Shown here piece after piece: positions 13,846-30,120 of a DNA stretch of 64,000 nt. Origin of the DNA: Ectothiorhodospira sp. BSL-9. Its GTDB lineage: Bacteria > Pseudomonadota > Gammaproteobacteria > Ectothiorhodospirales > Ectothiorhodospiraceae. Both the position numbers and the translations under genes were made by a program. The stretch is from contig NZ_CP011994.1 of the NCBI RefSeq assembly GCF_001632845.1, positions 1,426,001-1,490,000 on the forward strand, given 5' to 3'. The first letter of the stretch is position 1, and the number at the start of each line of letters is the position of its first letter. Below the pieces are notes generated by a model. The model did not search any database. It had not been told where the DNA came from and saw only the letters and a list, made by a program, of their open reading frames with translations.

Positions 13846-15765
13846 GTGTTTTTTCAACGATTTCGATTGACGCCCAAGCTGCTGATTCTGCTCGGTATAC
13901 CCATGGTGCTGGCGCTGGTTGTGGTGGCCCTCATTGTTATCGCGCAGGTTAACCACCGGGTGGTGGGGTTGATGCACGACGCCGCTCAGAATCGGGCCAG
14001 CGCGGGCTCGGATAGCGTGGGATGGTGGCTGGAGTCGCACATGGGGGTGGTGCGCACCCTGGCGCAGACCCGGGTGCTGGCCTCAGGCAATACCGAGAGC
14101 ATCTCGGGCGTCCTTCAGCACTTTGGTCAGCGCATGAGCGATGAATACGAAGTGCTGTTCTTCGCCGACGTCGATGGCGAAGCCTACTACCACAATGAAC
14201 ACCGCTCGAACTTGGCCGATCGGGGCTATTTCCGGCGTATCGTCCGGGATCAGGCGGACGTGTCCGTGGTCACCGATCCTGTCTACTCGCGCAGTACGGG
14301 AAATCCCATCACCGTACTCGCCCACGCCGTGGAAAATGCGCGAGGTGAAGTGCTGGGGGTGTTGGCCGCCACCGTGACCCTGGACACCCTGTCCCGCATT
14401 GTCGGGCAGGTCATCGACCAACCCGGGGCCATGGCCTGGGTTCTGGATTCTGGCGGCATGACCATCGCCCATCCGGATTCCGGGCGACTCATGTCGGAAA
14501 ATGCCCTTGATGTGACCAATCAGGAGTATGCCGCCATTGCCCGGCGCATGGTGGCTGGTGATCAAGGTATTGGGGAGTACGTGGATGATCAGGGACGCGC
14601 GTTCAATGTGGCGTACCAGCCCATTCCCGATACGCCGGGCTGGTCCCTGGCGGTCGCCATCCCAACGGACCATTTGCTGGCGACAGCGCGCGAACTGCGG
14701 ACAACGCTGATCGTCGTCTTCGGGATCACCCTCTTGTTGCTGGCCGGGATCATCATTTGGGTGGCCCGCATGATCGTGCGCCCGGTGCGTGAAACACGCC
14801 AGGCGCTGGACGATATTGCTGCCGGGGATGGTGATCTCACCCAGCGGCTCAATGAGGATCGCCATGACGAGTTCGGGGATCTGGCGCGCAGTTTCAACGC
14901 CTTTGTCGATGGTGTTCACACTCTCGTGAGGCAGGTCTCGGAGGCGGCCAGTCAGCTGTCGGCGGCAGCCGAGCAATTGTCCGTGTCCAGCCGCCAGGCC
15001 AGTGAGCAGGTTCAACAGCAGCAATCCGAGACCGAGCAGGTGGCGACCGCGATGACACAAATGGCGGCCACCGTGACCCAGGTGGCCGGTAACGCCAGCC
15101 AGGCCGCCGATGCCGCTGCCGAATCGGACCGCGCGGCCCATGCGGGTGCCGATGTGGTGCAACTCACCTCGCGGGAGGTGGGCGAGCTGGCCGAAGAGGT
15201 GCAGAGCGCGGTGTCCGTGATCAACCGCCTGCAGGGCGATGCCGAGAGCATTGGGACGGTGCTGGAGGTGATCCGTGGCATTGCCGAGCAGACCAACCTG
15301 CTGGCCCTCAATGCCGCCATCGAGGCTGCACGTGCCGGCGAGGCAGGTAGGGGGTTTGCGGTGGTGGCCGACGAGGTGCGCACCCTGGCCACCCGCACGC
15401 AGAGTTCCACCCAGGAGATCCGGGCCATCATCGAGAAACTGCAGGGCGCCGCCAATGATGCGGTCAAGGTCATGGATGCCGGGCATGCCAAGGCCACCGA
15501 CGGCGTGTCCTCCGCCGAACGGGCCGCCAGGGCCCTGGAGGACATCACCCGCGGTATCAGTACCATCAATGACATGAACACCCAGATCGCCAGTGCCGCA
15601 GAGGAGCAGTCAGCCGTAGCAGAGGATGTGCACCGCTCCCTGACGCGAATCAGCAGCGGCGTGGAACAGGCTGCCAATGGTTCCACGCAAATTGCAGCGG
15701 CCAGCGACGAGTTGGCGCGACTGGCGGCTGATCTTCAGACGCGGGTGGGGCGTTTCAAGGTATGA
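13846..15765 (+). CDS. Methyl-accepting chemotaxis protein with Cache-type sensor
   Basis: The 639-residue receptor has a membrane helix at about 12-33, a periplasmic double-Cache-like sensor (about 40-280, with [20 protein letters not shown] and [18 protein letters not shown]), a second helix at about 286-310, a HAMP segment (about 311-365) and a cytoplasmic signalling coiled coil. The conserved hairpin tip, [20 protein letters not shown] followed by [18 protein letters not shown], lies near residues 475-515. Cache sensors usually bind small amino acids or carboxylates, but the ligand cannot be read from the sequence. There is no C-terminal CheR/CheB pentapeptide. The start is a GTG at 13846 preceded by GGAGGGG. 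No other chemotaxis genes are nearby. Confidence 0.95.
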
Positions 15766-15858
15766 CTTTGGGAGGCGTGTCTGTAGCCTCCAGATAAAGC
15801 TGGAAGCTCATTCATCGTGTACCGGTTTGCAGCCGGCCCTTGCCGGGGGGCGGTACGA

Positions 15859-15972
15859 TCAGGAATCTTCGGGGTGCAGGTTTTTCGACTGCAAGAGCAA
15901 TTGCTCTGCCTCCTTGGCTGGCACCGGTCGGCTGAACAGGTAGCCTTGCCCCTGCACGCAGCCATGGTTCAG
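15859..15972 (-). pseudogene. C-terminal remnant of a second EAL-domain gene
   Basis: On the minus strand this short frame reads LNHGCVQGQGYLFSRPVPA then KEAEQLLLQSKNLHPEDS and stop. It is strikingly close to the tail of the 11094-13631 protein (LDHGCVQGQGYLYSRPVPAE). A TGA immediately upstream in the same frame shows that the rest of the gene is gone. It is read as the surviving end of a paralogous EAL phosphodiesterase and fills most of the 320-base gap between the chemoreceptor and the SMC-like operon. Confidence 0.75.
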
Positions 15973-16085
15973 TCATGGCCTTACCGTTTGGAGTTGATGG
16001 CAGTGCAGGGCGGCTGCGGGAATGCTGCTGCGGCCGGTCTCTGGCAAGATAGGCCCCTCCGAGGTCAAGGAATCCAGAACGCGAC

Positions 16086-19000
16086 ATGGCGCACCTGTTA
16101 CGCATCGTGATGATTCACGGCCATCTTGAGGGGGTGGTCGAGCTGAATGTGGACGGCCACACCAATATCTGCGGCACCAATGCCTCGGGCAAGACCACCC
16201 TGCAGCGGCTGGTGCCGGTGTTCTACGGCGAGTTGCCCAACAAGGTGGTGCCCAGGACGCGGCAGAAGTTCGACCAATTCTACCTGCCGCACCGCAACAG
16301 CTACCTGGTCTACGAATACCGGCGCGAGGCGGGCGACGTGTGTCAGGCGGTCCTCACGCGCAAGAGCGACGGCGGCGTGGAATATCGCTTTGTCAGTGCC
16401 CCCTATCGCCCCGAAGACTATCTGGTCACGGGCGAGGGCGGTGTGACGGCGCTGGACTATGCCCAGTGGGCCAACGGGCTGCGCCGCCAGGGTGTTGAGG
16501 TATCCCAGAAAATCGGCGCCAGCTCCGAATATCGCGCGGTGATCCAGAACGACTTCACCCAGCAATACGGCAACAGCCGCGAGGCATTGCGTCTGCGTCA
16601 GATGGCGGCCCGTTTCAGCCTGGTACGCCCGGCACATCGCATCCGTCATATGGAAAAGCTGGTCTCTGCGGTGCATGCCAAGGAGGGCAAGATGGACACC
16701 CTCAAGACCATGCTGGCGGCCATCTTCGAGGAGGATGGCGTCGAGTTGCCGGTCACCCGTATCCGCAACACCAAGGCGCGGGAGTGGATCGCCCGCATGC
16801 GCCAGTCCATGCGCCTGGCGCCGCTCCAGCGTGCCCTGGAAGACCTGCAGCGCCTCGACCGCGAGATTGCCGAGCTGGAGACTTCACTGTGTCAGTTTCA
16901 CCCCCGGCTCCAGGCCGACCACCACCATGCCCAGCGGGCCTGGGCCGACCTCGAGGCCCGGCTCAATGAGCTTCGGCGTGACTTCCGGGCTCGCGAGCAG
17001 GCCCATGAGGAGGCGCGCGGCACCCTCGACGACCGGATCAGCGCGCTGGACAGCGAACTGAAGCGGACTCGCCTTGAACTCGATGACCTGCAGCGCCGGT
17101 TCGAGGCCTTCAAGGAGGCCGATATGCCCGGTCTTGAGCGCGACCTCCAGAGTCTGCCTCAGTGGCGCGAGGAGTTGCAGCAACTGCGCGATCACCTGGA
17201 ACTGATGCAGCAGGCGGCCCAGGAGAGCAAGGCACGCCTGAATGCCCGGCTGGTGGAACTGGGTGATCTGCTGGAGCGCCGCAGCGAGGAAACCCAGGCG
17301 CGCATCGATGCCCTCGACAAGGAGAAGGACGCCTGCCGCGAGGCCCGGAGTGAACAGGAACAGCATCTGGAAGCGGACCATCAGGGCCGCCGAAAGGCAC
17401 TGGACGATGATTACCGCAGTCGCCTGGATGAGGGCGCCAACCGGCTTGCCGAACTCAAGGCCCGGCTGGCTCATGACGGCCAGACCACCGAGGAAGCCCA
17501 CGAGGCCCGGCAGGCCCAGGCCCGGGTCGATCAGGCTCAGGGCGAACAAAGCGCCGCCGTCGCCGCGACGGAGGCGGTGCGTGGCGAACTCGACGAGCGC
17601 AAGCGTGAACGCGAGACTGCGGAGCGTGATCTGGAGCATGCCCGTCAGCAGCGTTCCCGGGCCGAGGCGCGCCTTGATGCACTGCTGATCCAGCGTGACC
17701 CCGCCCAGGGCAGCCTGCGGCACTTCCTGCGTCATCATCGTCCGGGCTGGGAACAGAGCCTGGGCAAGGTGATCGCGCCGGAACTGCTGCAGCGTCGCGA
17801 TCTGGCCCCGCAGTTCAACGACGATGCCAGTGACGATCTTTATGGGTTGGTGGTGGACCTCGCAGCCATCGCCCTGCCTGATCATGCCCAGGACGAGGCC
17901 ACCCTGCTGGCCGGGATCGAGGCTGCCCAGCAGGCGCTGGACCAGGCCCGGAAGACCGAAGAGGCCGCCGAGAAGGCGCTCAAGGCCCGCCACGACAAGG
18001 TGCAGGAGGCCGCCGGCCGGCTGGATGGTGCCCGTGCGACCCAGCGCCGCGCCGCCGAAGAAGTGGACTACGCCCTGCAGGCCCGCAGCCAGTGCCGGGA
18101 GCGTCACGAGGCCGCTCGCCAGGCACGCCAGGCCGCCTGCCGTGAGGCGCTCAATGAGCAGGAGGCTCAGCAGCAGGCGCTGAATCATGAGCGGGAACAG
18201 GCCCTGGAGGCACTGGCCGGTACGCACCGCGCCCAGCGCCAGGCCTTGAACGACGAATTCAAGGGGCGGCTGGCCGGTCTGGATGAGCAGATTGCCCAGT
18301 ATCGTGGCCAGTTAACCGGATTCAGGGAGGAGAACCGCCGTCAGCGCGAGGAACTTGAGGCTGCCTTCGAGCGCGAACTGGCCGAGCAGGGTGTGGACAC
18401 CGTTAGCCTGAACCAGACCCGCTCACGCCTGGAGGCCCTGGAGCAGCGCATTCGCCAGACCGAGCGGCGTCGCGAGGAGCTCGAAGCCTACACGCGCTTC
18501 ATGCGGGTGGAGTGGGGTGAGCGCAAGCCGCAGTTGGTGGCGCGGGAGGCTGAACTGGGCGGTGAGCATCAGACCGCTGTGCGCGAGCGCGAGCATCTCA
18601 AGCAGCAGTTCGACACCGCGCGCCGGGAGTACCGTGAGGCGGTCGCCGATCTGGAGAAGCAGCGCAGCGCTGAACAGCAGTTGATCGACACCCTCGCGCC
18701 GTTGCTCACCCGGCTGGATGCACTGCATCTGGAACAGGTCCCGGACTCCCAGGGCGAGGCCCCGGGGGATGCCAGCGAACGCATTGAGCGCGTCCGCCAG
18801 GCGCTGACCGACCATGCCCGCACCCAGGATGAGCTGCGCCGTGGCTGCGAGAAGATGGAGTCCGACCTGATCAAGGGCGCCAGTACCGATTTCCACGAGA
18901 CCCTGGAGGCGGAGCGCAAACGGCTTGAAGACAGCAGCCCCCGCCGTCTGCTGGGTGTACTGGCCGGCATGCTCCAGTTGCTGGAGGGGCGGCAGGAGCA

Positions 19001-19751
19001 ACTCCAGCAGGAAGGACGCAACCTGGGCGACGATCTGGACAAGTTCTTCACCGTGTTCCGCGATCTCAACCGGCGCATCAACGCCCAGAGCCGGCGCCTC
19101 TCCGATGAAGTGGCGGATGATCTCAAGCTGGAGGGCATTGGTCGTGCAGAGGTGAAGATCCAGTCCACCATCGATGAGCTGGGTTTCTGGGAGCCGCTCA
19201 AGCGCTTCACCCAGCACTACCGCGACTGGCGCGACTCCGGCCAGCCGCTGCCCGGTGATGACTACCTGGACGCCCTGGCCGACGTGGTGGAGCTGTTGCG
19301 CAGTGACCAGCAGTACAGCTTCGAGAGCCTGCTGCGCCTGGAACTGCATCTGAACGAGGGGGGAACGGATCTCGTGATCAAGAGCGACCGCCAGTTGCTG
19401 GAGTCCTCCAGTCACGGCATGGCCTACCTGATCCTGTGCAAGTTCCTGCTGGCCTTCACCCGGTTGCTGCGCGGTGAGGCCCAGGTGGCCATTCACTGGC
19501 CCATCGACGAGATCGGCACCCTGGCCTATCACAACGTGGAGAAGGTCTTTGATGCCTGCGACAATAACCGCATCCATATCGTCGGCGCCTTCCCCAACCC
19601 GGAGTCGGACGTGCTGCTGCTCTTTCGCAACCGCTACCTGATCGACCGTGACGAGGCTGACCCGGCCAAACGCCGGCTCAAGCGCATCGAACCGCGCCTG
19701 AGCCGTCTGTCCCAGCGCCTGCAGGCCCGCGCCGAGGAGGTGTCCCCATGA
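16086..19751 (+). CDS. SMC/MukB-like ATPase of a Wadjet/Mks-type system (DUF3584-like)
   Basis: The 1221-residue protein has an SMC layout. The Walker A motif GTNASGKT is at residues 30-37. A very long coiled coil rich in Glu, Arg, Gln and Ala runs from about 230 to 1000. The C-terminal ATPase lobe has a signature-like ESSSHGMAYLILCKFL and Walker B HWPIDEIGTL near 1137-1145. The N-terminus (VDGHTNICGTNASGKTTLQR, VFYGELPNKVVPRTRQKFDQ) fits the DUF3584 ATPase family as I recall it, more than classical MukB or JetC. It heads a four-gene operon with small MksE-like, kleisin-like and TOPRIM proteins, so a loop-extruding complex that recognises and cuts foreign circular DNA, as Wadjet does, is the likely role. 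That function is inferred from architecture. Confidence 0.8.
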   Translation: MAHLLRIVMIHGHLEGVVELNVDGHTNICGTNASGKTTLQRLVPVFYGELPNKVVPRTRQKFDQFYLPHRNSYLVYEYRREAGDVCQAVLTRKSDGGVEYRFVSAPYRPEDYLVTGEGGVTALDYAQWANGLRRQGVEVSQKIGASSEYRAVIQNDFTQQYGNSREALRLRQMAARFSLVRPAHRIRHMEKLVSAVHAKEGKMDTLKTMLAAIFEEDGVELPVTRIRNTKAREWIARMRQSMRLAPLQRALEDLQRLDREIAELETSLCQFHPRLQADHHHAQRAWADLEARLNELRRDFRAREQAHEEARGTLDDRISALDSELKRTRLELDDLQRRFEAFKEADMPGLERDLQSLPQWREELQQLRDHLELMQQAAQESKARLNARLVELGDLLERRSEETQARIDALDKEKDACREARSEQEQHLEADHQGRRKALDDDYRSRLDEGANRLAELKARLAHDGQTTEEAHEARQAQARVDQAQGEQSAAVAATEAVRGELDERKRERETAERDLEHARQQRSRAEARLDALLIQRDPAQGSLRHFLRHHRPGWEQSLGKVIAPELLQRRDLAPQFNDDASDDLYGLVVDLAAIALPDHAQDEATLLAGIEAAQQALDQARKTEEAAEKALKARHDKVQEAAGRLDGARATQRRAAEEVDYALQARSQCRERHEAARQARQAACREALNEQEAQQQALNHEREQALEALAGTHRAQRQALNDEFKGRLAGLDEQIAQYRGQLTGFREENRRQREELEAAFERELAEQGVDTVSLNQTRSRLEALEQRIRQTERRREELEAYTRFMRVEWGERKPQLVAREAELGGEHQTAVREREHLKQQFDTARREYREAVADLEKQRSAEQQLIDTLAPLLTRLDALHLEQVPDSQGEAPGDASERIERVRQALTDHARTQDELRRGCEKMESDLIKGASTDFHETLEAERKRLEDSSPRRLLGVLAGMLQLLEGRQEQLQQEGRNLGDDLDKFFTVFRDLNRRINAQSRRLSDEVADDLKLEGIGRAEVKIQSTIDELGFWEPLKRFTQHYRDWRDSGQPLPGDDYLDALADVVELLRSDQQYSFESLLRLELHLNEGGTDLVIKSDRQLLESSSHGMAYLILCKFLLAFTRLLRGEAQVAIHWPIDEIGTLAYHNVEKVFDACDNNRIHIVGAFPNPESDVLLLFRNRYLIDRDEADPAKRRLKRIEPRLSRLSQRLQARAEEVSP

Positions 19752-20371
19752 TCGAGCACGGCCCCCTGCTGGAGCGCCTGCTGGCCGGCGACTTCATCTG
19801 CGCGGTGAGCGACGAGGCCGCCTTTCGCCACCTGCAGGACGAGACGATTCGCGAACAGATGGATGACTATCTGCGCCCGCTCAACCGTCGCCTGGCCACC
19901 AACACCGATGGGAATGTCTACTTCCTGGCCTGGCTGCGGCTCGACGAGGCCGCCCGGGAGCAGCTCTCGCGCCAGCTTGGCGACACGCTGGGCAGCCTGA
20001 TGCCGATGCTGGAGTGGTTGCAGCTGGTGCAGGAGGCGTTGGGCCGCGATGGCCTGGCGGCACCCGGTGACGTGCTCAAGCCCGCCGACTTCAGCTCCCG
20101 TTGCGAAGACCATCAGGGCCTGCGTGAGCGCCTGGAGCGGCTGGCCTCCGATCCCTTCTTCGGCTCCCAGAGCGACCAGCTGGACGCCCAGCTCAAGCAG
20201 GTCTTCAAGCGCCTCAAGGAGCATGGTTACCTGCAGCAGCCCCACGCCGATCGCCAGTACTACGTGGTGACAGGCAAGATCGACTACCTGATCGACCTGG
20301 TGCGATTCATCCGTGATGAGGAGAATTTGCCCATTGAAGATCAGGCGCCCACTCAGCAGAGCCTGCTATGA
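19748..20371 (+). CDS. MksE/JetB-like small subunit of the SMC-like complex
   Basis: A 207-residue soluble, acidic protein starting in an ATGA overlap with the SMC-like gene. The sequence is mostly helical with a C-terminal winged-helix-like part (QLKQVFKRLKEHGYLQQPHA, then QYYVVTGKIDYLIDLVRFI), the kind of domain found in MukE/MksE/JetB proteins, which bind the kleisin and modulate DNA binding. The identification rests on size, fold impression and position between the ATPase and kleisin-like genes; there is no short diagnostic motif. It ends in another ATGA overlap with the following gene, so the subunits are probably made in fixed proportion. Confidence 0.65.
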   Translation: MIEHGPLLERLLAGDFICAVSDEAAFRHLQDETIREQMDDYLRPLNRRLATNTDGNVYFLAWLRLDEAAREQLSRQLGDTLGSLMPMLEWLQLVQEALGRDGLAAPGDVLKPADFSSRCEDHQGLRERLERLASDPFFGSQSDQLDAQLKQVFKRLKEHGYLQQPHADRQYYVVTGKIDYLIDLVRFIRDEENLPIEDQAPTQQSLL

Positions 20372-21615
20372 GCGGCAACGACCCCCACGCCCTGGAGAGC
20401 CGCCTGATCAGCGCCGGGGTGGAGCGCCTGGCGCTGCTGGGCAAGCATGCCGAGACGCTGATGGCCGGCTACGCCTGCGACGAGGTGCCTCTGGAGGGGC
20501 TGAGCACCACTGCGCTGAACCGCCTGCTGGCGGCCCGCATCCTGTGGCGGCCCGACGAGCAAAGCGGCGTCAAGCTGGCCCCCAAGGTGCGTGAGCTGAT
20601 CGCCGAGATGCTGGCCGACGAGACCCGCCGCCACGTGAATGCCGATGTGGCCGAGACGCTCGAACTGGTGCGCACCCTGGTGCAGAGCTACCGCGAAGCC
20701 CGTGATGCCGGCGAGTACTGGCGCCAGGAGCAGCAACTCCTGCGTCTGCGCCAGGAGGTGGATGATCTCAATGGCCGCTTCGCCGACGCCATCGACAGCC
20801 TGTGGCGGCGGCTCAACAGCGACTTCGGCTTCGTCAGTCGCCTGGGCGACAAGGTCCGCGAGAACGAGCGTGCCCAGAAACAGATCGTGCGCCTGCTGGA
20901 CGGCCTGGAACTGATCGACTTCAACGAACTCATTGAGTTGGTGGGCAGCGATGGCGCCCTGCGCAAGCTGCTGGTCAGCGGCCTGCAGCAGCAACTCACC
21001 CACCACTACACCAGCCTGCGGGAGGTGCAGCGGCGGCTCATCGAACTGATGGCCCGCTTCCGTCAACAGCAGTCGCGCAGCCGTCTGGTGGCCGGCATGG
21101 TGGGCTTCCTGCGCGAGCACCCCAACTTCGTGCCTGGCAACTACGCCATGCGCAGCGAAGTGCCGGAACTGATCAACCGGGCGGCCCCCATCATGCCCGC
21201 GGGTGCCGTGGCCCTGGACCACGATGCCGATGCCCGTCTGGTGGCCGAATTGCTGCATCGCCTGCCTCGGCCTGCATCACGTCCCGAGCCGGTCACAGCC
21301 GCCGGTGCCGCCGAGTTGCCCGAGGACACCCTGGTGGCCGCGCGCCAGCAGGCGCTCAAGGAAGATGTGGAGGGGTTTTATCTGACGGTGGTGGATCACG
21401 ACGGCGAGGGGCTCAGTGCCCTGGAATATCTGCAGGGCAGCGATCTGGAGTGGGATGAGGAGATCTGGCTCTTCCAGGTGATCTCCGAGTATCAGGGCCT
21501 GCCCCGAAGCGAGCAGCGCGCCTTCCGGCTGCGTCAGGTGGAAACCCAGGCCAGCCCCTTTAATCATCTTTACCTGATCCACGACGTCCAGTTGCAATTG
21601 GCGCCGCCGGCATGA
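20368..21615 (+). CDS. Kleisin-like (MksF/JetA-type) subunit
   Basis: A 415-residue helical protein. The N-terminal part (about 1-100) looks like a winged-helix module, the middle (about 100-260) contains long amphipathic helices such as EYWRQEQQLLRLRQEVDDLN and RRLIELMARFRQQQSRSRLV, and the C-terminus (about 330-415) is acidic and probably contacts the ATPase. This order resembles the MukF/MksF/JetA kleisins that bridge SMC heads. Proteins of this kind are sometimes misnamed phosphoenolpyruvate carboxylase; no such catalytic motifs are seen here. ATGA overlaps on both sides tie it to the MksE-like and TOPRIM genes. Confidence 0.6.
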   Translation: MSGNDPHALESRLISAGVERLALLGKHAETLMAGYACDEVPLEGLSTTALNRLLAARILWRPDEQSGVKLAPKVRELIAEMLADETRRHVNADVAETLELVRTLVQSYREARDAGEYWRQEQQLLRLRQEVDDLNGRFADAIDSLWRRLNSDFGFVSRLGDKVRENERAQKQIVRLLDGLELIDFNELIELVGSDGALRKLLVSGLQQQLTHHYTSLREVQRRLIELMARFRQQQSRSRLVAGMVGFLREHPNFVPGNYAMRSEVPELINRAAPIMPAGAVALDHDADARLVAELLHRLPRPASRPEPVTAAGAAELPEDTLVAARQQALKEDVEGFYLTVVDHDGEGLSALEYLQGSDLEWDEEIWLFQVISEYQGLPRSEQRAFRLRQVETQASPFNHLYLIHDVQLQLAPPA

Positions 21616-22502
21616 GCCTGTCACCGGGTGCCTACAGGCTGCTGCGTGAGGTGCGCAAGAAGCTGCTCCACGAGCCCTGCGTGGCTAAATCCCGCGGTGG
21701 CAAGGTCATGGCGGAGATCGAGGCCTGGTGCCATGAGCACGACATGGTGCTGGGCATGCGCTGCTCCACCCGTACCTTGCGCTTCGACCGCGAACTGCTG
21801 GCGCAGATCGACACCACCCTGGTGGCTTCGGGGCTGCCGTCCATCGATGCCAACCTCAGCGGCCTCACCACCGCCGAACAGGCTCGCCACGGCAGCCGCG
21901 AGGAGAAGGGGGTGCGGGAGAACCCGCGGGACCATCGCGTGCTGGCCAGCCTGCCCGCCGGTGCAGCGCGGCCCGGCATCGCCGCGACGCCCCGCCATGT
22001 CCATGATCTGGACTGGCGGCAGATCCAACTGTCTGCCTTTGACGTGCTGGTTCAGGTGGAAAACCTGGACAGCTTCTACGGCCTGGCGCCCGATCTTCCG
22101 GCGCTGGCTTCGTGGTCTTGTCCGCTGCTGCTCTATCGTGGGGACAGCCACTATGGTGGAGGTTTTGGCAGGCTGTCCCAGGCCTGGGCGAGCACAGCCA
22201 GGCCGCATGTCTACTTTGGCGACTTCGATGCCGCCGGTATTCGCAACGCCCTGAGCAGCGGCGCAACCGACCTGCTGCTGCCACCCATCGCCTGGCTGGG
22301 CGAGCGCGCCACCTCCGGGCACCTGCCGGCAGAGCAGCACCACTACCAGGCGGCGCTGCATGACATCGAGGCCAGTCTGCCCGCGGAACACCCCTTCAGA
22401 GACCATCTGGCCATCCTGCTCGGGCAGCAGCGCGGCCTGCGTCAGCAGTGGTTCGGTGAGCAGCTGGTGATCGTGCCGCTGGGCGCGATTCGATCCGGCT
22501 AG
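21612..22502 (+). CDS. TOPRIM-domain nuclease subunit (JetD/MksG-like)
   Basis: The 296-residue protein has a C-terminal TOPRIM-like fold: VLVQVENLDSFYG supplies the acidic first-strand Glu (residue 150), LLLYRGDSHYGGG a Gly-rich turn, and HVYFGDFDAAGI the DxD pair (204 and 206). JetD/MksG proteins have the same arrangement (E...GDxDxxG) and cut plasmid DNA in Wadjet systems. The N-terminal half (about 1-130) is probably the DNA-binding or dimer arm; a segment after EEKGVRENPRDHRVL looks poorly structured. It is the last gene of the operon, joined to the kleisin-like gene by an ATGA overlap. Nuclease function is inferred. Confidence 0.75.
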   Translation: MSLSPGAYRLLREVRKKLLHEPCVAKSRGGKVMAEIEAWCHEHDMVLGMRCSTRTLRFDRELLAQIDTTLVASGLPSIDANLSGLTTAEQARHGSREEKGVRENPRDHRVLASLPAGAARPGIAATPRHVHDLDWRQIQLSAFDVLVQVENLDSFYGLAPDLPALASWSCPLLLYRGDSHYGGGFGRLSQAWASTARPHVYFGDFDAAGIRNALSSGATDLLLPPIAWLGERATSGHLPAEQHHYQAALHDIEASLPAEHPFRDHLAILLGQQRGLRQQWFGEQLVIVPLGAIRSG

Positions 22503-22620
22503 CCTGCGGGCTGTTTCAATCGGACGCCCAATCTCTTGATTATCATATCCATATTCCACGATGATTGTGGACTGCCCGCCTTTATGCGGCTACCCATGCC
22601 CCGCAACCCCGGTACCCTGG

Positions 22621-23235
22621 ATGATCAAGCTTCGAACCTACGTCTTCATGGACTCGCTGCAGCCGCAGCTTGCGGAATATCTGGCCACTGTATCCCAGGG
22701 GTTTCTACCGGTGCCGGGGGACGCCTGCCTGTGGATCGAGGTGTCGCCGGGGATGGCCATACACAGGCTGACCGACATGGCCTTGAAGGCAACCCGGGTG
22801 CGTCTGGCGCAGCAGGTGGTGGAGCGTGCCTATGGATCCATGGTCATTCACCAGCGGGATCAAAGCGATGTGCGCGAGGCCGGGCGGATGCTGCTCTCCC
22901 GGCTGGGTGCCCGCCAGGAGGACCGGGAGAGCTGCCAGGTGGCCTGGCAGGAAGTGATTCGCGGCATCACGCCGGATCACAGCGTGCTCATCAACCGACA
23001 GAACCGTCGCGGCTCCATGATCCTGCCCGGCCAGAGCATGTTCATCCTGGAAACCCAGCCTGCAGGCTACGTGGTGTATGCCGCCAACCAGGCCGAGAAG
23101 GCGGCCCGCATTAACCTGATCGATGTGCGCGCCGTGGGCGCCTTTGGCAGGCTTACACTGTCGGGCAGTGAGGCGGATGTGGATGAGGCCGCACAGGCGG
23201 CCCTGGCGGCCATCGAAAACCCCGCCGGGATCTGA
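22621..23235 (+). CDS. Tandem bacterial-microcompartment (BMC) shell-domain protein
   Basis: About 204 residues from the ATG at 22621, where the conserved [16 protein letters not shown] begins; the frame is open back to 22561. Two BMC-like halves are visible. The second, from about residue 115, carries [20 protein letters not shown] then [20 protein letters not shown], a typical BMC alpha/beta pattern; the first has [20 protein letters not shown] and [20 protein letters not shown]. Tandem BMC proteins form pseudohexameric shell tiles. No other shell, carboxysome or diol/ethanolamine enzyme genes are in the window, so this is an orphan shell-like protein of unknown role, perhaps not forming a compartment at all. 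It is followed after 34 bases by a Nudix gene. Confidence 0.8.
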
Positions 23236-25188: not shown

Positions 25189-26136
25189 TCATGTGTCCAG
25201 GTTTTCCGTACTTTGATCCTTGGCGATTCGACGCGGCTTGATCAGGTTGTCCCACCAGGGACGCAAAGCCTTCACCCCCGGCCCAGTGCGCTCCCAACGC
25301 CCATCGGGGTGACGGACCCAGTTGGGTTGGTCGGGGAGCTTTGCTGGGTCGAGGCGGTACCAGCGCCAGCCTTCTACGCGGCGCATTAGGTCCCAGTTGC
25401 CGGAGTAATGCTTATCGCAAAGCTCGTGGTCAGCTCTCGCCACCTCCGCAGCTGGACCTTCAGTCGTACTGTCTTTCATGAATGCGACAATGTAGCGGTA
25501 GATCGCCTCCGCTTCAGTAGTATTCCATAGGCTAAATTGTTTGCCGTCTAGATCCATAAGTTTGTGAGCTTTCGGCGAGGGTGGTGCGCCATCTTTAATC
25601 AAATCATGAGGGGGGCGGACTAACGCCACCTTAGTATTGCAATAGGAGTGAGGTCGGTAAATGTGATTTTCATCATAGATTAGATAGGAAGAGTCTATCC
25701 AGGTTAATGAGTCTATGTTGTTTCGCATTCTCTGGGTGAAGTAAACAATTTGTCGCTCTCTGTCAAATACGACAAATCGGTTTGCTGGCAAAGCTCCTGA
25801 TAGCCAGAAAATTAAGATGCCTATCGGTATTGCAAAAATGGATAATATCGCGATAGCGATTGATTCGTGTTGTTTTATTACAACTAGAAGGGTGAAAGCT
25901 ATTACTGACATGCCTAACCCTAGAGTGCCGATCGTCGTGGCAAGAGAGTGGTAGCCATAAGTAAGAATATTAGATTCCTGCCATGAAGGGCCAGGCCAAT
26001 AATGTTCTCGTTCTGTCTTTTTGCCGTAATGTGTGGTTTGGAATGGTGGTTGGGTATTGTCTTGGGAAAGGGCCACCTTGCTTCGCTCAAATAGTTCACG
26101 GAAAGGGGATGCTACCCATGCGCGTGCGACTGCCAT
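25189..26136 (-). CDS. Putative immunity protein for the adjacent effector (DUF6708-like)
   Basis: A 315-residue protein with two hydrophobic helices (about residues 62-88 and 92-116), then a beta-rich domain (NRFVVFDRERQIVYFTQRMR, WIDSSYLIYDENHIYR) and a C-terminal stretch with RRVEGWRWYRLDPAKLPDQP then RHPDGRWERTGPG. The layout resembles DUF6708-type proteins encoded beside type VI secretion effectors. It lies 40 bases downstream of the effector stop on the same strand, the usual immunity position. The middle of the gene is much more AT-rich than both ends, as is the effector 3' part. This suggests acquisition of matched toxin/immunity modules by recombination. Immunity function is inferred. 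Confidence 0.6.
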   Translation of the reverse strand: MAVARAWVASPFRELFERSKVALSQDNTQPPFQTTHYGKKTEREHYWPGPSWQESNILTYGYHSLATTIGTLGLGMSVIAFTLLVVIKQHESIAIAILSIFAIPIGILIFWLSGALPANRFVVFDRERQIVYFTQRMRNNIDSLTWIDSSYLIYDENHIYRPHSYCNTKVALVRPPHDLIKDGAPPSPKAHKLMDLDGKQFSLWNTTEAEAIYRYIVAFMKDSTTEGPAAEVARADHELCDKHYSGNWDLMRRVEGWRWYRLDPAKLPDQPNWVRHPDGRWERTGPGVKALRPWWDNLIKPRRIAKDQSTENLDT

Positions 26137-26176: not shown

Positions 26177-29100
26177 CTAGTTTGTCTTTGCGCTAGTGTT
26201 TATTGTTGGGGTCTGCTCAACTGTAGGTCTCCAAGTTGACTGTATGCGTACATACTCTTTTTCACTTAGCTTGTTGTTTCGTGAATCGCGGCTAGGCCAC
26301 GAGGCTCGTCTTTCGATTTTGAAGTCCGGGTCATTCCGGTTTGGGCGTAGGACGATTGTCGTGGTTACGCCTGCCACTATTTCTCGGATGGTTGTCTTGT
26401 GGAATAGGCGAATTTTAACCGGAGCCCCGTGGTCGTTCGTTTCTATAATCATCATTTCTTCGATTCGAATTTGCGAGCCGGAAGATCTGAGTAAGATTTC
26501 AACCTCTATGATACCTTTGAGTGAGGCGATTTCGGTTAGCTGGATATTGACTTCAACGAGTACCGGTGAGTTAGGTTCGCGTAGTTGTATGCCTGTATGG
26601 GTTTGCGTGTTGTAAGGGTTTTTTTGCGTTGTGAGGTCATGCATGATTATTTGCGCAGTGATCTCATGGATGATGGAGATCATCTTTTTCAGCTGATCTT
26701 CTGGCGTGGAAACGGGGTGTTCAGGAGGTTTCGTTTCTTTTATGGCTAATTTTCCAAACTGAGATTGGAATAGGGTTTGGGCGAGCTTCGTTCGGTCTTG
26801 ATTCGCAACAATAAGGTTTCCCGTCGTGCCAAGAAGTAAAGCGAACAGTGCGCTAAATCCAAGGATGTTGGCGCCTAATACGGCAACACCGGAAGCTACT
26901 ATTAGTGAGCCCCCTAGTATGACTCCTTTGTTGTTGTTGGTTAGTCCATTAAATATATAGGCGGCACCAGCTCCAAGATCCATTAATCCAGAAAATCTCG
27001 TGAGCGTTATCAGTATGGTCTGTTGTCCTGAGGCTTTATAATTTCGTTGGCGCCGTTTGTGCGCATTATGGTTTGATATGCTTGAGTGCAGTCGTTCTGT
27101 TGAGAGTGCGTGCGAGTAACGATTTTGGTTCTGTTGAGTGATTTTGGGTGCGCCATATTGTGGGAGTATCGACTGTCGAGTATTTGACCAGAACCTAAAC
27201 TCGGACAGCCCGAAAGCGGCTACCGTGCTAAATAGAGAGGCTAGCTGCAGGTTATGTGCAGCCGCTTGTGACCGCCCCATTTCCCCAAGGGCGATTCCAA
27301 GATTAAAAAGTAGCAAAGGCCCTAAAATTGCTCCATAAGCCATTCGGTAGGAGGGGGTGTTGCGGATCATTTGACTTAGGTCACCAAGACTATAGGCGCC
27401 AGTTGGCATTAGAACAGGTACATTTGTTTGGTGGAGTTCTTTATGGATACCTATAAATTCAGATTGCCGGAGTTGGAAGCCTCGAGCAGGAGGATTATCG
27501 AAGGTGAATCCTAAGAAGTGCGATAGCGGTAAGTGCTGGATATGGAGTTCGATGCCCGCAATTCGGTGTGCCATAGTTGCGACATGACTCAAGCTATGTC
27601 TTATGTGCTGGGGTTGTTCGTTCATCGCCGCCTCCGCCAACGCATCGATCAACCGATTCAACGCGTCCGGCGCAAACGTGGCCAGCTGCAGCCGGTCTAT
27701 CTCCAGTAGCGGCTTCATGCGGGGTTCGGTGGTTTCCAGCCATTGGTTGCCGGTGGACCAGTCGATGAGGGTCTGGCGGGTTTCCGGGTCGTCGTTACCC
27801 AGGACGGGGAGGGTGTTGGTGTCCGGGTCGAGAAAGCACCTGAGGTAGGGCAGGGAGGTTTCGCTGTCCAGATCGCGGATGCAGTGGATCCACTGCAGCA
27901 GACCGAAGACCCGATCGTCCGGGCAGGGGCTCTTGGTGTAGTCCTCCAGGGCATGGGCGTAGTGGGGGGATTGCAGCAGCGACAGCAGATCCCGGTTCAG
28001 GGCCTGGAAACGACTGGCCGCCTCTTTCACCTTCTGGTCCCAGGCATTGAGCGTACGGTTCATGCGGGGCACGTCCACCTGGCGCTGCAGGTCGGGCTGA
28101 ACCTGTATGAGACGCTGGATCAGGGTGCCCAGGGCGCGTTCACCATCGATGGCCGATTGTTCGGCCTCGGCCAGATCTTCCAGGCAGGCGTCCATGGACT
28201 GGCGCAGATCCCGGGCTTGTTGCAGTGGGTCGGGGAGGAGCGCGGTGATGAGGCCGTTCACATCCCGCAGTTCCAGGGCCTCGCCGCGCTCGGGTTGCGA
28301 GGCTAGAAGAGGGCGGGGGCGGCCGCCGGGCTGACCGGCGCGACCGAGGCGTCCCATGCGCACTGCTTCGCGCCCCAGGTTCAGTGGGGTGCAACGGGCA
28401 TCCCGCTCGCTGGAGGAGGGCGGGGGCACCCTCCTGGGATCATCCGGTGCCAGGCCGCCGAAACCCTCGATCCGCGCCCAGGTCCACTGCGGCTCACTCA
28501 GCGCCAGTTGGTAATCGAACACCTTCCCGTCAATACGATGCGGGAACAGCAGGCGCGCTCCCACGGGGCAGTGTGCCGGGCGTTCATCCTTGCCCTGCCA
28601 GACCTCAAGGTTCACCTCCAGCCAGGTCCCCTCGGGACCGGCCTCCAACTCGCGCCACAGATGACCGTCGCGAAAGACATAGACCCGGCAGCCGGGTCGG
28701 ATGGCGTCATGCTCTATTCCCCGAATATCCACCGACCGACGCAGGGCCACGGCGACCAGCTGATGTTCATGGCGATGCGCCTCCAGGGCCGGGTCGTTGT
28801 CCGAATCCCGGGGCCGAACGCTCACATCCTGAGCCAGTGGGACGTGATACATGCCCTGGTGGGGATCGTGCAGCGGCAGTACCAGATCCACCGTCTGTGC
28901 CGGCAGGCCAGTAAAGAGCAGGGTGTGAGCATCGCGGCGATTGTTCACGGGGCGCGGGTAGGCGCCGACCGCATCACCCGAGCCGTCCCGGGGTTGGGCT
29001 GTCACTTCCAGTCCGCGCCCCAGAGCCCTGTCCAGATCCACCTCGAGCCGCAGCGCATGAGTCTGCTGCAACGGGGGTGGCTCATTGAAGACCGCAGGAT

Positions 29101-30010
29101 TCAGTTCCGCCGCCTGTCGGCAGCCCGGTTGCATGAGGGGGGCAGGCGGGGTGTTGCGACAGTTGGAGACCATGGGGTCGAACTGCCGTACCGCCGGCAC
29201 GCCCTCGAAGAACACATTACTGGAGCGGCCCACAAACTCCGCGTAACCGCGCCGGGTGCGGGAGCGCACGCCGCCACAGTTGCCGGCCTCGTCACCCCGG
29301 CTGCGGGCGAACCGGGACTGGTGATGACACGCCGCATGACCGTTGACGAACACGCTGCCGGCGGTGCCTGTGGCATCCCGGCTTTCCGCCACATTGGTAT
29401 ACGGGATGGGCTTGCAGCGCTTGCCGATCCTGGTCAGGCACACATCAATACTGGTGAGCCGGCCCTGGGAGCCGGCATGCACGGCGCTGCGGCCGTTGAT
29501 GGCGATGTTGCCGCCGGCACCGGACGTTGCGGGGTTAGCGCTGTCCTCCTGGATGGCCAGCGGCTGGCGATGGACGGAGCCGATCTCCATGCCCAGGCGA
29601 TGCTCGATGGCACGGGCCACCGTGTCCCGTTCGCGAGGGCCCAGAGTGCTGACTGTGCGCTCCGCCTCCAGACCCGTGTCCGGGCAGCGGGAGGGGCGAT
29701 CAGGTTGCGAGGGTGGCAATTGCCAGTGGGGGTCGATGTGCCGGTAAAGGCTGGCGATGCGGTGGTGGCTCGCCGGGGCGCGTCCCAGCCAGTCTCTCAG
29801 GGCGCGGCGCCCATGTTCCAGTGTAGGGAATACCGGTACGCCCTGGGCAACACCGATGGCGCCATGATCCAGGGCCACCGGGCCCAGGCCCAGTAAGCCG
29901 GGGTTATGGGTACGCCAGGAGAGGCTGCCGCCCCGATGGATGGTGACCGTGTCGGAGTCGTCAAAGAAATGCACTTCCGTGTCGGACGCACCGCTGGCTG
30001 ATCGATACAT
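26177..30010 (-). CDS. Large PAAR-like polymorphic toxin, probable type VI secretion effector
   Basis: A protein of about 1277 residues from the ATG at 30010 (AGGGAAG upstream). A first region (about 15-100) carries GGSLSWRTHNPGLLGLG and GAIGVAQGVPVFPTLEHGRR, resembling phage-P5-like muramidase/structural domains. A PAAR-like (DUF4150-type) region follows (about 140-300, with SVFVNGHAACHHQSRFARSR and SSNVFFEGVPAVRQFDPM). A middle part, including helices around 620-740, leads to a C-terminal region from about 800 that is much more AT-rich and has several membrane-type helices (MAYGAILGPLLLFNLGIALG; GGSLIVASGVAVLGANILGF). PAAR-like proteins tip the type VI spike and carry C-terminal toxins. No other secretion genes are nearby. 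The C-terminal activity is not recognised. Confidence 0.75.
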   Translation of the reverse strand: MYRSASGASDTEVHFFDDSDTVTIHRGGSLSWRTHNPGLLGLGPVALDHGAIGVAQGVPVFPTLEHGRRALRDWLGRAPASHHRIASLYRHIDPHWQLPPSQPDRPSRCPDTGLEAERTVSTLGPRERDTVARAIEHRLGMEIGSVHRQPLAIQEDSANPATSGAGGNIAINGRSAVHAGSQGRLTSIDVCLTRIGKRCKPIPYTNVAESRDATGTAGSVFVNGHAACHHQSRFARSRGDEAGNCGGVRSRTRRGYAEFVGRSSNVFFEGVPAVRQFDPMVSNCRNTPPAPLMQPGCRQAAELNPAVFNEPPPLQQTHALRLEVDLDRALGRGLEVTAQPRDGSGDAVGAYPRPVNNRRDAHTLLFTGLPAQTVDLVLPLHDPHQGMYHVPLAQDVSVRPRDSDNDPALEAHRHEHQLVAVALRRSVDIRGIEHDAIRPGCRVYVFRDGHLWRELEAGPEGTWLEVNLEVWQGKDERPAHCPVGARLLFPHRIDGKVFDYQLALSEPQWTWARIEGFGGLAPDDPRRVPPPSSSERDARCTPLNLGREAVRMGRLGRAGQPGGRPRPLLASQPERGEALELRDVNGLITALLPDPLQQARDLRQSMDACLEDLAEAEQSAIDGERALGTLIQRLIQVQPDLQRQVDVPRMNRTLNAWDQKVKEAASRFQALNRDLLSLLQSPHYAHALEDYTKSPCPDDRVFGLLQWIHCIRDLDSETSLPYLRCFLDPDTNTLPVLGNDDPETRQTLIDWSTGNQWLETTEPRMKPLLEIDRLQLATFAPDALNRLIDALAEAAMNEQPQHIRHSLSHVATMAHRIAGIELHIQHLPLSHFLGFTFDNPPARGFQLRQSEFIGIHKELHQTNVPVLMPTGAYSLGDLSQMIRNTPSYRMAYGAILGPLLLFNLGIALGEMGRSQAAAHNLQLASLFSTVAAFGLSEFRFWSNTRQSILPQYGAPKITQQNQNRYSHALSTERLHSSISNHNAHKRRQRNYKASGQQTILITLTRFSGLMDLGAGAAYIFNGLTNNNKGVILGGSLIVASGVAVLGANILGFSALFALLLGTTGNLIVANQDRTKLAQTLFQSQFGKLAIKETKPPEHPVSTPEDQLKKMISIIHEITAQIIMHDLTTQKNPYNTQTHTGIQLREPNSPVLVEVNIQLTEIASLKGIIEVEILLRSSGSQIRIEEMMIIETNDHGAPVKIRLFHKTTIREIVAGVTTTIVLRPNRNDPDFKIERRASWPSRDSRNNKLSEKEYVRIQSTWRPTVEQTPTINTSAKTN

Positions 30011-30120
30011 GGCATGGCTTCCCTGCGCATGGACATGCCCGGAATCATCGCCCGGCCCCTTCCTGAGTTCAAGCCCGAAGGCCGGAACCACCTCACAAAA
30101 GAGGGATCAAATCCATACAG
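29830..30120. repeat. 291-bp direct repeat, copy 1 (within the effector 5' end)
   Basis: This segment is repeated at 30968-31258 at a constant offset of 1138 bases, with only a handful of base differences. It contains the first 60 codons of the effector and about 110 bases upstream. Copy 1 is the functional 5' end. Confidence 0.95.

Follow-up and report, generated by a model that had tools for sequence, protein, structure and literature searches.

Organization of the operon

The stretch of DNA analyzed in this study (the window) covers 64,000 nucleotides of Ectothiorhodospira sp. BSL-9 (contig NZ_CP011994.1, positions 1,426,001 to 1,490,000), whose genome is a single contig of 3.55 Mb. On its forward strand, at window positions 16086-22502, lies a four-gene operon encoding a structural maintenance of chromosomes (SMC)-like ATPase (gene A), a small MksE-like (KITE) subunit (B), a predicted kleisin subunit (C) and a TOPRIM protein of the JetD/MksG kind (D; Table 1). 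A preliminary description of this DNA had proposed an ATPase-first operon here, with a 1221-residue ATPase carrying Walker A at residues 30-37 and a C-terminal Walker B, and the present analysis bore this out. All four open reading frames (ORFs) are present, neighboring genes (A/B, B/C and C/D) share 4-nt overlaps, and both ATPase motifs are in place, the Walker B at residues 1136-1142 with Glu1142. Base composition is coding-like, with a G+C fraction of 0.81-0.85 at third codon positions versus 0.36-0.48 at second positions in genes A-D. The closest named relative of the ATPase, from Ectothiorhodospira haloalkaliphila, is 96% identical.

Gene A matched PF12128/DUF3584 with 771.9 bits (cut-off 31) over residues 8-1187; the likeness to DUF3584, which had previously been attributed to the N-terminus, thus extends over the full length. 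Among the whole-genome loci found through A (operon counts leave out the fragment L038), the A-B-C order recurs in 30 of 30 and, together with the ATPase score, places the four-gene arrangement far beyond chance. D adjoins C in 19 of these 30 loci, in all 19 cases starting no more than 16 nt from the end of C, and its reading frame opens within 20 nt after C in 49 of 52 D-bearing named loci (the exceptions being L118, at 0.1 kb, L127, with a broken D, and L131, at 3.1 kb). The proposed order of ATPase, small subunit, kleisin and nuclease is therefore correct, and it is conserved in gammaproteobacterial loci. Presence or absence of D was called by searching all reading frames, since antisense ORFs can mask D; a 312-aa antisense ORF over D in the window was rejected as a spurious opposite-strand ORF.

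Table 1. Features of the four-gene operon, with positions in the window
Feature	Window position	Strand	Length or residues	Remarks
Gene A, SMC-like ATPase, DUF3584/PF12128	16086..19751	+	1221 aa	
Domains of A		 	N-head ~1-240, coiled coil, hinge-like ~541-600, coiled coil, C-head ~990-1190	Borders and coiled coils inferred from conservation and composition profiles
Walker A of A, GTNASGKT	16173..16196	+	30-37	G30, N32, G35 and K36 invariant in 31 rows
Hinge-like segment of A	17706..17885	+	~541-600	Conservation peak; P/G up and E/K/R/Q down versus flanks; putative function
ATP-binding cassette (ABC) signature variant of A, SSSHG	19404..19418	+	1107-1111	
Walker B of A, IHWPIDE	19491..19511	+	1136-1142	Catalytic Glu1142; D1141 and E1142 invariant in 31 rows
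Gene B, MksE-like (KITE) subunit	19748..20371	+	207 aa	
C-terminal pentapeptide of B, QQSLL	20354..20368	+	203-207	Candidate clamp-binding or other docking motif
Gene C, kleisin-like subunit	20368..21615	+	415 aa	Assigned from structural model
Layout of the C model			N-terminal helices 6-71, long helices 72-250, low-confidence linker ~251-318, helix-helix-strand-strand 319-411	Last segment putatively winged-helix-like
Gene D, TOPRIM protein of the JetD/MksG/Topo VI-A kind, DUF7281	21612..22502	+	296 aa	
Glu150 codon of D, VEN motif	22059..22061	+	150	Invariant in 20/20; aligned with Glu of JetD TIEN
Asp204-x-Asp206 codons of D	22221..22229	+	204-206	Invariant in 20/20; aligned with GDRD of JetD

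Relationship of the subunits to known families

Across 31 aligned family members, the ABC signature of the ATPase reads SSxG in 29 rows (the exceptions being FSEG in L037 and GSEG in L082), compared to SGG[EQ] in reference JetC, MksB and SMC rows and STGE in MukB, while the Walker B reads WPIDE[LI]G in 25 of the 31 rows, compared to DEA or DEV in the references. Profile-profile comparison (hhalign), in which 12 cross-role controls all remained below 3%, related A to JetC of Wadjet type I at 97.3% (E 2.7e-11, residues 1-141), followed by MksB (80.4%), Wadjet II (35.1%) and MukB (10.8%). The JetC ATPase models PF13555 and PF13558 had no match in A at E<=10; PF13558 exceeded its cut-off in 4 of 4 reference JetC/MksB proteins. 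The best of the PADLOC JetC models reached 19.7 bits with A, which does not place it in JetC. When ATPase heads were compared in a 32-row tree, all 21 of the 21 family rows formed one clade with 100/100 support, in keeping with the earlier suggestion of a separate clade with Wadjet-like parts; the JetC1, JetC2, MksB, MukB and SMC rows lay outside this clade, which is not nested in JetC, and five MksB rows formed their own 100/100 clade apart from the DUF3584 family. The branching order among groups in this tree is unsure because of its long branches. Full-length JetC3 was absent among the 143 genomes searched and is hence not in the tree. The model of the MukB N-terminal domain (PF04310) had no match in the window genome and exceeded its cut-off in one of 36 genomes.

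The small MksE-like subunit proposed earlier was recovered by Pfam: B exceeded the cut-off of the MksE model PF21980 (36.6 bits, cut-off 27) and fell below that of the JetB model PF13835/DUF4194 (24.5 bits, cut-off 32.7). Of 31 family B proteins, 29 matched PF21980 and 16 matched PF13835 at E<=0.01. Both of the reference MksE proteins scanned fail the PF21980 cut-off and score on DUF4194, so that PF21980 is a weak marker of MksBEF.

No Pfam family exceeded its cut-off in C, and the JetA models PF18982 and PF11855 had no match at E<=10; three reference kleisins score 67-436 bits on the JetA models. An AlphaFold2 model of C (predicted local distance difference test score, pLDDT, 77.7; predicted template modeling score, pTM, 0.41) returned chains of MukBEF, MukEF, MukF and JetABCD as Foldseek ranks 1-6 (E 1.2e-3 to 1.4e-2), where the kleisin identity of the matched chains within complexes was taken from chain length. 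On this basis, C is predicted to be the kleisin subunit. Of the four roles that had been assigned from the sequence, those of ATPase, MksE-like subunit and TOPRIM protein are thus borne out by profiles or models, and that of the kleisin by the model only.

The TOPRIM protein D matched PF23947 (DUF7281) with 42.9 bits (cut-off 27). Its residues Glu-150 and Asp-204/Asp-206, singled out in the preliminary description, were confirmed as invariant and aligned with JetD motif residues (Table 1), giving D the Glu and Asp-x-Asp active site of a JetD-like TOPRIM protein; Q278 is likewise invariant in 20 of 20 aligned homologues. The structural model of D (pLDDT 83.4) superimposed on MksG (8b7f) with Z 10.5 and 3.3 A over 146 residues, on Topo VI-A with Z 8.5-10.4 (1d3y, at 10.4, being tied with MksG) and on JetD (7til) with Z 8.8, while Foldseek alone ranked Topo VI-A chains first and JetD fourth, with MksG outside the best 50. 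Sequence-only searches of the PDB returned coiled-coil or chance matches or nothing, and one returned just MksG (E 0.4). By profile, D was related to JetD of type I at 93.6% (E 2.1e-7) with the first alignment, which gave 12% for Mks and 36% for Wadjet II; larger alignments gave 89% for Wadjet I, 75% for Mks and 67% for Wadjet II. The JetD_C model PF09983 found nothing in D (E<=10) or elsewhere in the window genome, and at E<=0.01 it matched one of 20 family D proteins; the PADLOC JetD3 model reached only 11.3 bits with D. Searching NCBIfam gave no informative family for any of B, C and D. D is a probable DNA-cutting enzyme. Lys99 of D (window 21906-21908), in a low-confidence stretch ahead of the TOPRIM domain, is also invariant in 20 of 20.

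Comparison with Wadjet, MksBEF and MukBEF

Reference loci were gathered with the JetC model and the MukB model and comprised three Wadjet I, five MksB, one Wadjet II and one MukBEF locus, these labels being our own, derived from models and gene order; one of the five MksB loci carries a JetD_C nuclease. The operon shares with Wadjet type I and MksBEFG the four roles, a related SMC head (JetC type I, 97.3%) and the TOPRIM active site. It differs from them in gene order, as the nuclease-bearing reference loci run kleisin-KITE-ATPase-nuclease whereas the window operon runs ATPase-KITE-kleisin-nuclease, and in its ATPase, which belongs to DUF3584, lacks matches to the AAA_29 and SbcC_Walker_B models and carries the SSxG and WPIDE[LI]G motifs. 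In addition, its kleisin is not JetA and its nuclease is not JetD_C, D being 296 aa long compared to 375-430 aa in five reference nucleases. Wadjet type II likewise has the four roles, and its nuclease is matched by the D profile at 66.7%; however, its kleisin is DUF3375 and its ATPase profile matches A at 35% (one reference locus). MksBEF, as in Pseudomonas, has the subunit set of the D-less family members, and B passes the Pfam MksE model, yet the family ATPase is not MksB (the two form separate 100/100 clades) and the gene order is different. As for MukBEF, MukF chains are among the best matches of the C model and the reference MukE strongly passes the Pfam MksE model, but the MukB N-terminal domain is absent from the window genome.

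The ATPase-head tree and the Pfam models led us to reject Wadjet I or II, MksB and MukB as the group to which the operon belongs. Since the JetA, JetC and JetD models found no member here and the ATPases form their own 100/100 clade, the operon, as far as its parts tell, appears to be Wadjet-like but of its own lineage, and it is not filed here as Wadjet. No publication on a DUF3584 operon of this kind was found, as judged from titles and the openings of abstracts, and the literature search returned nothing on DUF7281 and nothing joining MksB, condensin and Shewanella. Diverse MksBEF subfamilies were reportedly described by Petrushenko in 2011, and an earlier sighting of the DUF3584 lineage is thus possible. 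Some E. coli records name D 'Wadjet anti-phage system protein JetD domain-containing protein' and some name B 'condensin complex protein MksE'; telling names occur on two of the four proteins only, and one of those names varies.

Changes in nuclease presence

D is missing from 11 of the 30 whole-genome loci and from 25 of the 77 named loci, where L110, with a D remnant (an 84-residue match only), was counted as D-less and L127, with a broken D, as D-bearing. The possibility that D is encoded elsewhere in D-less genomes was rejected, as a genome-wide search recovered it in 0 of 11 such genomes and in 4 of 4 D-bearing genomes searched alongside. On an ATPase tree of 103 rows (68 with D and 35 without; L127, with a broken A, and L159, on a truncated contig, were left out, and L026, L073 and L150 were dropped as near-duplicates), the state of D changed at least 13 times, with 11 changes forced by starred branches, compared to a mean of 29.6 in shuffles. 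All seven deeply divergent loci (L033-L037, L077 and L082) carry D. When these seven and L110 are set aside, A-D distances track A-C distances over 61 loci (rho 0.93 and 0.97). Among named Shewanella loci, a sodium:dicarboxylate symporter gene lies downstream in 6 of 6 with D and 7 of 8 without D. Because the position of D is nearly constant, the A-D and A-C distances run parallel, L110 retains a remnant and the downstream gene is shared in Shewanella, D has apparently been lost repeatedly in place, with regain as the alternative.

The core that remains without D is under purifying selection. The ratio of nonsynonymous to synonymous substitution rates (omega) of A, B and C in usable D-less pairs is 0.012-0.075, low as in most D-bearing pairs, and omega of D is 2.2-6.4 times that of A in all 6 usable pairs. 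Omega of A was computable in 3 of 7 D-less and 6 of 7 D-bearing pairs, the others being saturated, and the pair L087/L088 has raised values in every gene. In Alteromonas (in the broad sense, the genus of G355), A exceeded the cut-off in 59 of 59 genomes, being split by a stop in G773, and in all 59 the core copy continues with B and C; D lies beside the core copy in three, is absent in 55 and is precluded from a call by a contig end in one. The 50/50 control for these calls gauges window size rather than sensitivity of the D model, as the control loci had been called with the same model. One Alteromonas genome (G806) carries a second, divergent, D-bearing copy (L284:2452-8936) beside its D-less core copy. 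With D dispensable in evolution and the core under purifying selection, the family is not simply a defense system; of the defense role proposed in the preliminary description, the Wadjet-like parts stand, whereas a purely defensive function does not fit a family in which D is missing from 35 of 103 tree rows. The presence of ScpA in 33 of 36 genomes, whether or not they bear the operon, makes the complex accessory to Smc-ScpAB in most hosts.

Distribution and mobile copies

Counting the window genome itself, the DUF3584 ATPase exceeded the cut-off in 5 of 10 genomes of the window genus, in 10 of 369 sampled genomes of its class and in 22 of 398 genomes of its phylum, all 22 of which belong to that same class. 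The ATPase-first order recurs in Gammaproteobacteria, in a cyanophage and on plasmids. In E. coli, copies close to that of E. albertii were found in 11 of 5426 genomes, all chromosomal, by a fast search that reaches roughly >=85% identity to the E. albertii copy; in the two regions that were read, the operon lies between a gsp2 cluster and genes for AbiEii, TerB, a helicase and an integrase. A complete ABCD operon is present in the 209-kb genome of Dolichospermum phage Dfl-JY45 (L217:5968-12323), the sole match at E 1e-5 among 50,697 phage records, and carriage of the whole system by a cyanophage suggests use against competing elements. A scan of IMG/VR gave 306 pattern matches, of which 0 were confirmed.

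Plasmid records matching A numbered 44, and among the matches listed, 38 of 40 exceed 100 kb. Eleven of the 44 plasmid regions were examined: six have an unbroken ATPase-first ABCD, one has an ATPase remnant and two are from Bacteroidota. These two Bacteroidota relatives (L225:7230-13559 and L226:6272-12556) have a canonical-like order of C-sized gene, KITE, ATPase and TOPRIM-like gene, with the KITE supported by profile at 82 and 97% and the TOPRIM-like gene at 81 and 95.5%, and with no family match for the C-sized gene. Because of these two relatives, the ATPase-first order is not general to the whole DUF3584 lineage.

C-terminal tail of the small subunit

The last five residues of B fit the pattern Qxx[LM][LIFVM] in 97 of 108 B proteins (which are kin, so that this is not a count of independent cases) but in only 1 of 571 neighbor proteins and in none of nine reference KITE tails. 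The pattern occurs in 63 of 72 B proteins with D and in 34 of 36 without D, and all 56 B copies fetched in the genus Alteromonas end in Qxx[LM]x, while the residues immediately ahead of the motif are variable. Of 13 B copies from E. coli, phage and plasmids, six have the pattern at the very end; among the remainder, two end in QGEF[ND]F, one in QMRLA and four in nothing resembling it. The tail resembles the sliding-clamp motif QL(S/D)LF, as given in PMC9690074, which makes clamp binding a candidate function for it. Position 2 is mostly E, R, G or Q and is aliphatic in 2 of 108 tails, whereas the revised consensus quoted in PMC13254535 wants an aliphatic residue there.

Genomic neighborhood of the window operon

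Upstream of the window operon are genes for a PAS-GGDEF-EAL protein and a methyl-accepting chemotaxis protein (MCP), and downstream are genes for BMC-domain, NUDIX and deaminase proteins. The MCP gene (13846-15765) separates the PAS-GGDEF-EAL gene from the operon here, while in E. haloalkaliphila (G001) an 845-aa gene of the PAS-GGDEF-EAL kind is immediately 5' of the ATPase and the MCP match lies elsewhere. The BMC-domain protein gene comes after the operon (22561-23235). The minus strand carries a gene for a Tox-PAAR-like-domain protein of 1304 aa (26177-30091) and, directly downstream, one for a 315-aa protein without a Pfam match (25189-26136); the two are possibly an effector and its partner. 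A promoter scan of 15700-22700 found one sigma-70-like site, on the minus strand, at about chance level.

Possible functions of the complex

We consider it rather likely that A, B and C form a divergent SMC-KITE-kleisin complex, that D is its TOPRIM nuclease of the JetD/MksG type and that the whole works like Wadjet, with the D-less form probably serving as an accessory condensin. Under this reading, a pair of ATPases, joined through the kleisin and with the MksE-like subunit at their flanks, would load on DNA, and the loaded complex would extrude DNA loops with ATP; at an end condition on a small circular molecule, D would cut the DNA and the plasmid would be lost. The D-bearing form would be accessory and partly mobile, and several marine lineages would have lost D in place while keeping the ABC core in this probable condensin role. 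The genes and their order, the motifs, the modeled folds of C and D, the clade, the distribution of D, selection on the core and the mobile copies are observed here, whereas assembly of the complex, extrusion of loops, cutting of DNA by D, restriction of plasmids, the direction in which D changed and the role as a condensin are inferred. In favor of the reading are the four overlapping genes in fixed order, the Walker residues kept in all 31 rows, the profile matches of A and D, the models of C and D, the MksE match of B and the occurrence of the operon in mobile or defense-like settings, namely in the cyanophage, beside AbiEii and integrase genes in the two E. coli regions read, as cargo next to Tn7-like tns genes on a plasmid and on large plasmids. 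The changes in D state, the downstream gene shared by 13 of 14 Shewanella loci, the low omega of the core and the 59 of 59 Alteromonas genomes with A speak for the D-less branch.

Several observations weigh against this reading. The kleisin fold of C comes from a model with a pTM of 0.41, for which a second aligner (VIA) put MukF first (Z 11.9, root-mean-square deviation 18.5 A) but tied with unrelated helical proteins, and comparison of C with JetA profiles gave at most 3.6%, which is no secure link. For B, the JetB profile gave 6.7% against 2.6% for the best control with the first alignment, and 4.0% against 5.0% with the larger one, while in D the structural matches cover residues 103-291 and residues 1-102 lie outside any assigned fold. 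The changes in D were counted on an ATPase tree that came from a rapid search and contains several long branches, and nearest neighbors in A and D are discordant in 8 of 61 loci. Some copies are damaged: IS911 interrupts two of the 11 E. coli copies, one of the two E. coli regions read has an internal stop in its ATPase, and two of the 11 plasmid copies are broken, one of which adjoins Tn7-like tns genes as cargo. No recognizable defense genes lie beside the window operon. In addition, an unbroken copy resides on a plasmid of 40 kb, a size at which the description of Wadjet in PMC10586767 leads one to expect restriction; this copy fits a size-sensing model poorly.

An unlikely alternative is that the complex, like MksBEF, serves mainly as an accessory condensin of the chromosome, in which D, in the manner of Topo VI-A, trims or resolves chromosomal entanglements and is no weapon against plasmids. 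The retention of the core without D in many lineages would be expected from such a condensin, as would the presence of A in 59 of 59 Alteromonas genomes, the position of ffh (SRP54, by Pfam) no more than three genes upstream in six named Alteromonas-group loci and the fit of B to the MksE model rather than the JetB model. The D-bearing form, on the other hand, is scattered and mobile, occurring in 5 of 10 genomes of the window genus and in 11 of 5426 from E. coli, and also on plasmids, in a phage and as Tn7-like cargo, and the 2-6 times higher omega of D relative to A in 6 of 6 usable pairs is unlike that of a typical housekeeping enzyme.

It is also conceivable, albeit improbable, that the system is an anti-phage or anti-invader nuclease acting in another mode, for example coupled to replication and recruited by the sliding clamp through the B tail, rather than a sensor of plasmid size. 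The conserved Qxx[LM][LIFVM] tail, the unbroken copy on the 40-kb plasmid and the copy in a phage genome are all in line with this idea, whereas the tail itself fits it less well, being aliphatic at position 2 in only 2 of 108 cases against the revised consensus (PMC13254535), present at the very end in no more than six of the 13 copies from E. coli, phage and plasmids, and equally common with and without D. A repair cluster of the SbcC/RecN type lacking SMC-complex partners would also account for a coiled-coil ABC ATPase whose operon includes a nuclease-like gene; we give this explanation almost no credence and rejected it, as MksE-, kleisin- and JetD-like partners are present and A lacks the SbcC Walker B model carried by four reference JetC/MksB proteins.

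Implications for the evolution of SMC complexes

Extending the Wadjet-like reading further, we tentatively propose, at somewhat less than even confidence, that the ATPase-first lineage has repeatedly shed its nuclease in place to become a vertically inherited condensin (genus-wide in Alteromonas), and that its KITE subunit may dock on the replication clamp via the C-terminal pentapeptide. The repeated changes in nuclease presence and the conserved B tail are, to us, the new elements here. The MksBEF of P. aeruginosa organizes the chromosome and likely arose from JetABCD by nuclease loss, as suggested in the review PMC10586767. If our proposal is true, the Wadjet-like origin put forward for MksBEF and MukBEF would be visible as many recent, independent events, and docking of the B tail on the clamp would tie the machine to replicating DNA. 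The D-bearing and D-less sister strains, the shared downstream gene in Shewanella and a motor under selection provide material with which the idea of MksBEF from JetABCD can be tested. The operon would also extend the SMC-nuclease systems by a lineage that escapes the JetABCD models used in this analysis, and it may represent a case of defense machines turned into chromosome organizers.

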